Source of the DNA: Methanobrevibacter millerae
Lineage (GTDB): Archaea > Methanobacteriota > Methanobacteria > Methanobacteriales > Methanobacteriaceae
Reading direction: 5' to 3'
Length of the DNA stretch: 50,562 nucleotides
Assembly (NCBI RefSeq): GCF_900103415.1
Contig: NZ_FMXB01000022.1
Coordinates: forward strand, 1-50,562
In this document: piece after piece, positions 30,904 through 31,537 of the stretch
Layout: every line of letters begins with the position of its first letter
Numbering within the stretch: the first letter of the stretch is position 1
Notes under the pieces: generated by a model
Told to the model about the DNA's origin: nothing
Database searches by the model: none
What the model saw: the letters and a program-made list of their open reading frames with translations, nothing else
Made by a program: the position numbers and the translations under genes

Positions 30904-31051
30904 TGGGGTCACAGGGATTTGAACCCCGATCCTGGGATGTCTCTTGCCTCAGTACTCCAATTGATCATCACAACAGGTACTGTTCAGTTACGCGTATAGT
31001 TCTTCAAAGACAACTGGAGTCCCAGATGATGCCTGGTTACACTATAACCCC
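30904..31051 (-). tRNA. tRNA-Trp (CCA) with a 75-nt intron
   Basis: The 5' exon is 31051-31014 and the 3' exon 30938-30904; together they fold as a 73-nt tRNA with acceptor GGGGTTA/TGACCCC, discriminator A and anticodon CCA. The intron (31013-30939) sits between positions 37 and 38, the standard archaeal place. The junctions form a bulge-helix-bulge: CTC pairs with GAG, bulges AG|T and AC|A hold the cuts, and an outer helix TGTC pairs with GGCA. One C-A mismatch lies in the central helix. CCA is not encoded. Confidence 0.95.
30939..31013 (-). ncRNA. Box C/D guide RNA within the tRNA-Trp intron (predicted Cm34 guide)
   Basis: Read 5'-3' on the minus strand, the intron has a box C (GTGATGA, 30971-30965) and a box D (CTGA, 30952-30949) 12 nt apart. 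A degenerate box C (TTGAAGA, 31007-31001) and a D' (CTGA, 30987-30984) lie upstream. The guide CAATTGGAGT (30963-30954) pairs over ten bases, with one G-U, with 31020-31011, the anticodon loop plus first intron bases. The fifth base before box D faces C34 (31017). This agrees with known 2'-O-methyl C34 guides in tRNA-Trp introns of other archaea. The D' guide has no clear target here. Confidence 0.8.
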
Positions 31052-31101: not shown

Positions 31102-31509
31102 TTAAAATTTCATTTGTCTGTCGATGCCTGTAATTTCATCGATTTCCAGGCCTTTCTCCAAGATATAATCTTTTTCGACCTTATAATTACCATTTCTTGT
31201 ACGTTCGGCTTTATCCGGCTCAAGAAACAGCCATTTGGTATATTTGAATTTCACGCCGATATAGGCCTTAGCGCCGAATATCCTGGAAAACTCAAGAAGT
31301 GCGTCAATCTGTTCGGTGTCGATGTAGACCTTGTCCTTGGTTGTAGTCTTTACTTCAATGGCCAAATACAGTTTGGAATTTCCTGCAACAACATCCGGTA
31401 ACGGTCTTTTGGTAGCTCCACCTGAAGCGGGAGCCCTCATAGCTGCAAAATCTCTCTCCCACAGCTTATGCACTAAATCTCTTTCTTCAGCAGAACCTTT
31501 CTTAGCCAA
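31102..31509 (-). CDS. hjc: Holliday junction resolvase Hjc
   Basis: 135 aa from a TTG start at 31509. The frame can be extended to GTG 31518 or TTG 31521, but GGTG at 31519-31516 is a proper ribosome site for 31509 and gives the usual MAKKGS-type N terminus. Archaeal Hjc active-site residues are visible: Glu in AEERDL (E8/E9), D39 (PLPDVV) and E52-V-K54. It cuts four-way DNA junctions symmetrically during recombination. It lies between tRNA-Trp and the other tRNA genes. Confidence 0.9.
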   Translation of the reverse strand: MAKKGSAEERDLVHKLWERDFAAMRAPASGGATKRPLPDVVAGNSKLYLAIEVKTTTKDKVYIDTEQIDALLEFSRIFGAKAYIGVKFKYTKWLFLEPDKAERTRNGNYKVEKDYILEKGLEIDEITGIDRQMKF

Positions 31510-31537
31510 GAATAACACCAAAAAAATAGTTTATAAA

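Follow-up and report, generated by a model that had tools for sequence, protein, structure and literature searches.

The window analyzed here, which is the whole 50,562-nucleotide stretch of DNA from Methanobrevibacter millerae, carries on its minus strand, from position 31051 to position 30904, a gene for tRNA-Trp(CCA) that is interrupted at position 37/38 by a 75-nt intron, as could be read directly from the sequence (Table 1). An original prediction made from the letters alone had named this intron and its box D but gave no strand. Model R1, which was built on six pre-tRNA sequences with the window's own among them, matched the gene on the minus strand with a score of 156.8 bits (G000:C22:30905-31051). 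The tRNA-Trp gene was missed both by ARAGORN (default settings) and by Rfam, presumably because of the intron, whereas five adjacent tRNAs were reported by each. A gene for an archaeal Holliday junction resolvase (PF01870, Hjc; window positions 31102-31521) is placed between this five-tRNA cluster and the tRNA-Trp gene, all on the minus strand, and a search against phage records returned no match.

Table 1. Features of the intron-containing tRNA-Trp(CCA) gene (window positions) and tRNA arrays elsewhere in the genome
Feature	Position	Strand	Remark
tRNA-Trp exon 1	31051-31014	minus	Residues 1-37, with C34 at 31017; from sequence and model R1
tRNA-Trp intron, 75 nt, position 37/38	31013-30939	minus	From sequence
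tRNA-Trp exon 2, residues 38-73	30938-30904	minus	From sequence
Target of the D guide, from residue 31 through intron base 3	31011-31020	minus	C34 opposite the fifth guide base
Box C, UUGAAGA, partner of box D	31007-31001	minus	Identical in 123/129 Methanobacteria genomes
D' guide region, the 13-nt spacer from box C to box D'	30988-31000	minus	Without the residue-39 match
Self-complementary core UACGCGUA	30989-30996	minus	Inside the D' guide region
Box D', CUGA	30984-30987	minus	From sequence
D'-C' loop	30972-30983	minus	AACAG/CUGUU hairpin, seen by eye in the sequence only
Box C', GUGAUGA	30971-30965	minus	(A/G)TGATGA ahead of the guide in 128/129 genomes
D guide directed at C34 (guide positions 11-2)	30963-30954	minus	Fifth base before box D is 30957
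Box D, CUGA	30952-30949	minus	129/129 genomes
GAG, central helix of the bulge-helix-bulge	30941-30943	minus	Pairs with residues 32-34
GGCA, inner helix	30945-30948	minus	Pairs with intron bases 2-5 (31012-31009); 127 to 128 of 129 genomes at each position
tRNA arrays (L353-L356)	G000 contig C8:49568-50940; C5:83111-84081, 89566-91737		

The intron is organized in the order box C, spacer, box D', short loop, box C', guide, and box D. The sequence GTGATGA, which had been taken for box C, is indeed present but is box C', and the partner of box D is instead the 5' UUGAAGA. This first box C lies two positions off RUGAUGA, which we take to be the consensus, and it had been described as degenerate; since UUGAAGA is found exactly in 123 of the 129 Methanobacteria genomes from which the intron was recovered, it is not a decayed box. 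Box D' and its guide had not been mentioned in the original prediction.

The D guide forms a duplex of 10 contiguous pairs, nine of them Watson-Crick and one a G-U pair at residue 37, with residues 31 to 37 and intron bases 1 to 3. C34 (31017) stands opposite base 30957, the fifth one ahead of box D, and both the 10-nt guide and its frame on C34 thus stood as originally predicted. When the first three intron bases were held fixed and the remainder of the intron was shuffled with dinucleotides preserved, a 10-pair guide beside CUGA in the C34 frame arose in 5 of 20,000 shuffles.

Conservation of the boxes and the guide in relatives had been proposed as a check, which the prediction passed: box D and the C34 guide core were found in 129/129 of the recovered Methanobacteria introns. 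Across these 129 genomes and 65 other archaeal loci (194 sequences), 1936 of 1940 guide-target cells formed standard pairs. The patterns used account for part of this count, because the search for other archaea required the guide core and parsing of the 129 required GACTCCAG and GAGT.CTGA; pairs 31 to 36 in Methanobacteria, pairs 32 to 36 elsewhere, and box D are affected in this way. Sliding the guide by 1 to 3 positions left 17 to 54% of cells paired. The freer evidence is provided by residue 37, intron bases 1 to 3, and the difference at residue 31 between the groups. Methanobacteria have A31, the intron bases UUG, and the guide sequence CAA, and the 65 other loci have G31, CGG, and CCG. 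Residue 31 and intron bases 1 to 3 covary with the guide between the two groups; at residue 31, an A-U pair in Methanobacteria is set against a G-C pair in the others, both sides having changed, and two additional Methanobacteria genomes (loci L119 and L144) have an A-U pair at intron base 1. This covariation consists mostly of one deep split plus the two further changes. Alternatively, the boxes might be relics in an intron that serves only as a passive spacer. The H. volcanii intron has been reported to be deletable with viability kept (PMC4090602, PMC11408192), as a spacer would be, but guide and target both change here and yet remain paired, and the boxes are retained across the 18 genera with recovered introns, which makes this explanation highly improbable. 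Rather, the pairing and its conservation indicate that the intron very probably is a Cm34 guide working on the unspliced pre-tRNA; splicing cannot yet have taken place in the substrate, as the guide target includes the first intron bases.

The Methanobacteria counts come from running model R1 on 151 genomes. The 22 genomes that did not yield an intron comprised 9 with a match to exon 2 and 13 without a match. Truncation by N or at the end of a contig affected 8 of the 9, with guide or box D sequence still visible, and in the remaining one, only the last intron bases followed a run of N. Among the 13, three near-complete genomes of one genus (G143, G144, and G148) gave no tRNA-Trp match by the model or by exon patterns; five other genomes of that genus do give one, and masking likely explains the gap. 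For other archaea, 80 loci were taken from at least 118 matching stretches, and 15 of these loci were left out as they did not fold as tRNA-Trp; Methanomicrobiales and Archaeoglobi are overrepresented among the 65 parsed loci. Dropped as chance, truncated, or degenerate matches were L003, L004, L010, L120, L121, L122, L124, L125, and L127, and the second copy L112 and second loci of genomes already counted were dropped as well. An 8-base motif proved too loose as a search pattern and was not used.

The bulge-helix-bulge was retained along with the guide. Residues 32 to 34 are paired with the GAG close to the 3' end of the intron in 128 to 129 of the 129 Methanobacteria, and intron bases 2 to 5 pair with GRCA in 127 to 128. 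The motif is slightly relaxed in Methanobacteria because the central helix lacks its fourth pair: C35 stands opposite A or U in 127/129, compared to G in 65/65 of the other loci. The bases used overlap the guide target, as had been noted originally, and since both processes use the same bases, guiding and splicing are mutually exclusive within one molecule. Each pre-tRNA would at one time be either a guide target or a splicing substrate. A naive fold of the naked transcript placed the guide on its target in cis and did not give the cloverleaf; such a predicted fold is evidence only that the guide and target strands are complementary.

Guiding of C34 by a tRNA-Trp intron is established biology, of which the intron in the window is a further example. 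The Haloferax intron is reported to guide Cm34 and Um39 (PMC4090602, PMC2584109, PMC7994747), 29 or more archaea had been listed with this arrangement by 2008 (PMC2584109), and one reanalysis describes circular tRNA-Trp introns in every organism that it covered (PMC12558985). The Haloferax and Pyrococcus precedent that had been named for this intron is thus a matter of published record; as in Haloferax volcanii and Pyrococcus (sR50), a 37/38 intron carries C/D and C'/D' boxes and a C34 guide, its target extends into the intron, and splicing relies on a bulge-helix-bulge (PMC2584109, PMC4090602, PMC7994747). Compared with this class, the 37/38 intron lies in a bulge-helix-bulge without the fourth central pair, boxes C, D', C', and D occur in order (D' and C' are missing in 1 of 129 genomes, G072), and C34 faces the fifth base ahead of box D, but in none of the 128 Methanobacteria genomes with a D' box does the D' guide place residue 39 at its fifth base. 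The intron is therefore a member of the class for C34 that fails one defining feature at D'. Unlike the H. volcanii and Pyrococcus introns, those of Methanobacteria have a D' guide that is off residue 39 and self-complementary, the box C sequence UUGAAGA, and residue 35 unpaired in the central helix. The Methanomicrobiales and Archaeoglobi introns share with them the frame of the D guide on C34, the bulge-helix-bulge, and the C' and D boxes but differ in having D' directed to residue 39, an intron that starts with CGG, and a C35-G pair in 65/65. Length did not distinguish the lineage as had been suggested; introns in Methanobacteria range from 40 to 102 nt, with 75 nt the commonest (38/129), compared to 61 to 63 nt at Archaeoglobus-labelled loci and 103 nt in H. 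volcanii (PMC2584109).

In other archaea the D' guide sets residue 39 at its fifth base and pairs with the 3' splice region. In this residue-39 frame, 6 of 6 pairs were formed at 61 of the 65 other loci, 5 at three, and 4 at one. The same frame gave 1, 2, and 3 of 6 pairs in 19, 81, and 28, respectively, of 128 Methanobacteria genomes (G072, which lacks D', was excluded from the D' counts). The match to residue 39 is missing throughout the sampled Methanobacteria, including their most distant member, G138. An ordinary dual guide of the Haloferax and Pyrococcus type, with D serving Cm34 and D' serving residue 39, would account for the shared layout of boxes C, D', C', and D and for the pairing at the 61 loci, but with only 1 to 3 of 6 pairs in every Methanobacteria genome that has a D' box, this explanation is extremely unlikely. 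Together, these results support with high confidence a nested box C/D guide for Cm34 in pre-tRNA-Trp whose D' guide lies off residue 39 and is self-complementary. In this lineage, the intron RNA would have lost one of two methylation targets, and a self-complementary sequence stands in that guide's place; residue 39 is predicted not to be methylated through the intron. The novelty of such a D' guide in Methanobacteria is provisional; the open-licence literature yielded no account of a self-complementary D' guide or of the tRNA-Trp introns of Methanobacteria, and the 2001 paper that defined the class may mention Methanobacteria.

A core of alternating purines and pyrimidines was found in 128/128 of the Methanobacteria D' spacers, with forms that include UACGCGUA, GUGCGCAC, AGCGCGCU, UGCGCA, and UGUACA. 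The core keeps a near-constant position just ahead of box D', with a frame that is off by one between genera. The predicted self-duplex of the spacer beat shuffled sequences at a P value of <0.05 for 33 of 39 distinct spacers (worst value, 0.115), compared to 0 of 25 distinct D' spacers from the 65 other archaeal loci, which served as the control. Among 26 distinct cores, 23 had at least 3 palindromic pairs, versus a mean of 12.9 after column shuffling, a comparison in which kinship among rows is uncorrected; none of 300 column shuffles, which keep composition, matched the observed self-complementarity. In the predicted fold of the excised intron, the core is largely single-stranded (median unpaired probability, 0.79; range, 0.19 to 0.90), compared to an intron mean of 0.47.

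The main rival to a self-pairing role is that D' has a fixed target elsewhere, in rRNA, another tRNA, or a small RNA, with G-U pairs tolerated, and that the palindromes are a by-product of the alternating purine-pyrimidine sequence. Consistent with this, the first six core positions differ by transitions only (a restriction partly imposed by the alignment pattern, which all 128 spacers match), core types that break the perfect palindrome would remain able to pair with a single UGUGYGU target, and orphan guides are described as common in archaea (PMC7994747). The excess of self-complementarity over column composition argues against it, as does the shift of the core frame between genera. Nor did a convincing target emerge in this genome: the D' guide had no match above chance in the 16S sequence, where shuffled guides did equally well in 90 of 200 trials, or in the tRNAs, where they did so in 66 of 200. 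The tRNA set consisted of 80 distinct sequences predicted in the window and in the loci around the genome's tRNA hits, and its top match to the D' guide was the palindrome of pre-tRNA-Trp itself. In the partial 23S sequence of one relative (G113), the best sites disagreed among guides. Because rRNA is masked in or absent from most relatives' genomes, this search was not exhaustive, and we regard a fixed target as a tentative but substantial possibility.

The palindrome might also be a DNA element within the gene, such as a binding site for a regulator, and not a feature of the RNA. The dyads are short, perfect, and GC-rich, as such a site could be, and the form TGTACA, which was seen at loci L009 and L016 (G128), equals the TRP-box to which TrpY binds in Methanothermobacter, although this is probably a coincidence. 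A DNA site is improbable, given that the palindrome holds its near-constant place just before box D', that its sequence is too variable for one regulator, that forms pairing only through G-U exist, and that it is gone along with D' and C' in G072. That genome, of the same genus and 83% complete, has a 40-nt tRNA-Trp intron (L002:1473-1584) that retains boxes C and D and a C34 guide that is shortened and weakened, and it represents either a natural deletion or an assembly artefact. Since D' and C' are missing there and the guide is weakened, the guide arrangement is not indispensable.

In the mechanism that we favor, the D guide would pair before splicing with residues 31 to 37 and the first three intron bases, and an RNP of fibrillarin, Nop5, and L7Ae would methylate the ribose of C34 to give Cm34; as expected for the class, the genome encodes fibrillarin and a Nop family protein, at nearby positions on contig C23. 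By analogy to the published Haloferax reaction, for which trans action is reported (PMC4090602, PMC7994747), the guide probably acts in trans. The D' guide would be a short, accessible, self-complementary element that no longer matches the tRNA, and the sequence comparisons suggest that it was repurposed, possibly for pairing two copies of the intron RNA. Palindromic pairing of two introns or pre-tRNAs through D' could make the trans reaction mutual. In its most specific form, D' would be a kissing element whose palindromic core joins two intron or pre-tRNA RNPs, each methylating the other's C34, and coupled changes would preserve self-pairing while the sequence drifts; we consider this form rather unlikely. 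Substrate-free archaeal box C/D RNPs are reported to be mainly dimers containing two guide RNAs, with an oligomeric state influenced by the guide sequence (PMC7089733). The proposed pair would resemble this di-RNP in having two guide RNAs, but the account of the di-RNP in that paper, so far as it bears on the guides, does not describe them as paired with each other (PMC7089733), and the self-pairing of an accessible D' core is here a prediction from sequence only. If real in RNA, it would provide an in vivo handle on the question of monomeric versus dimeric RNPs, which is posed there as open (PMC7089733), and would bear on the trans action of a guide that lies within its own substrate.

The genome gave 77 tRNA hits, many of them in dense arrays (Table 1); archaeal tRNA clusters are the topic of an earlier report (PMC6333295). 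A second tRNA-Trp(CCA) gene, which has no intron, was found at L353:400-470, and its anticodon loop matches only 7 guide positions. In another genome (G010), a gene for a tyrosine recombinase (PF00589) adjoins the intron-bearing tRNA-Trp gene (L340 and L341; C87:24700-48000), and truncated 3' copies of tRNA-Trp, intron included, were seen at C87:43260 and 47518. G105 and G013 have comparable truncated copies, preceded by a similar stretch of sequence; L120 and L124 are among the loci concerned. This looks like an integrative element that uses the tRNA-Trp gene as its attachment site.
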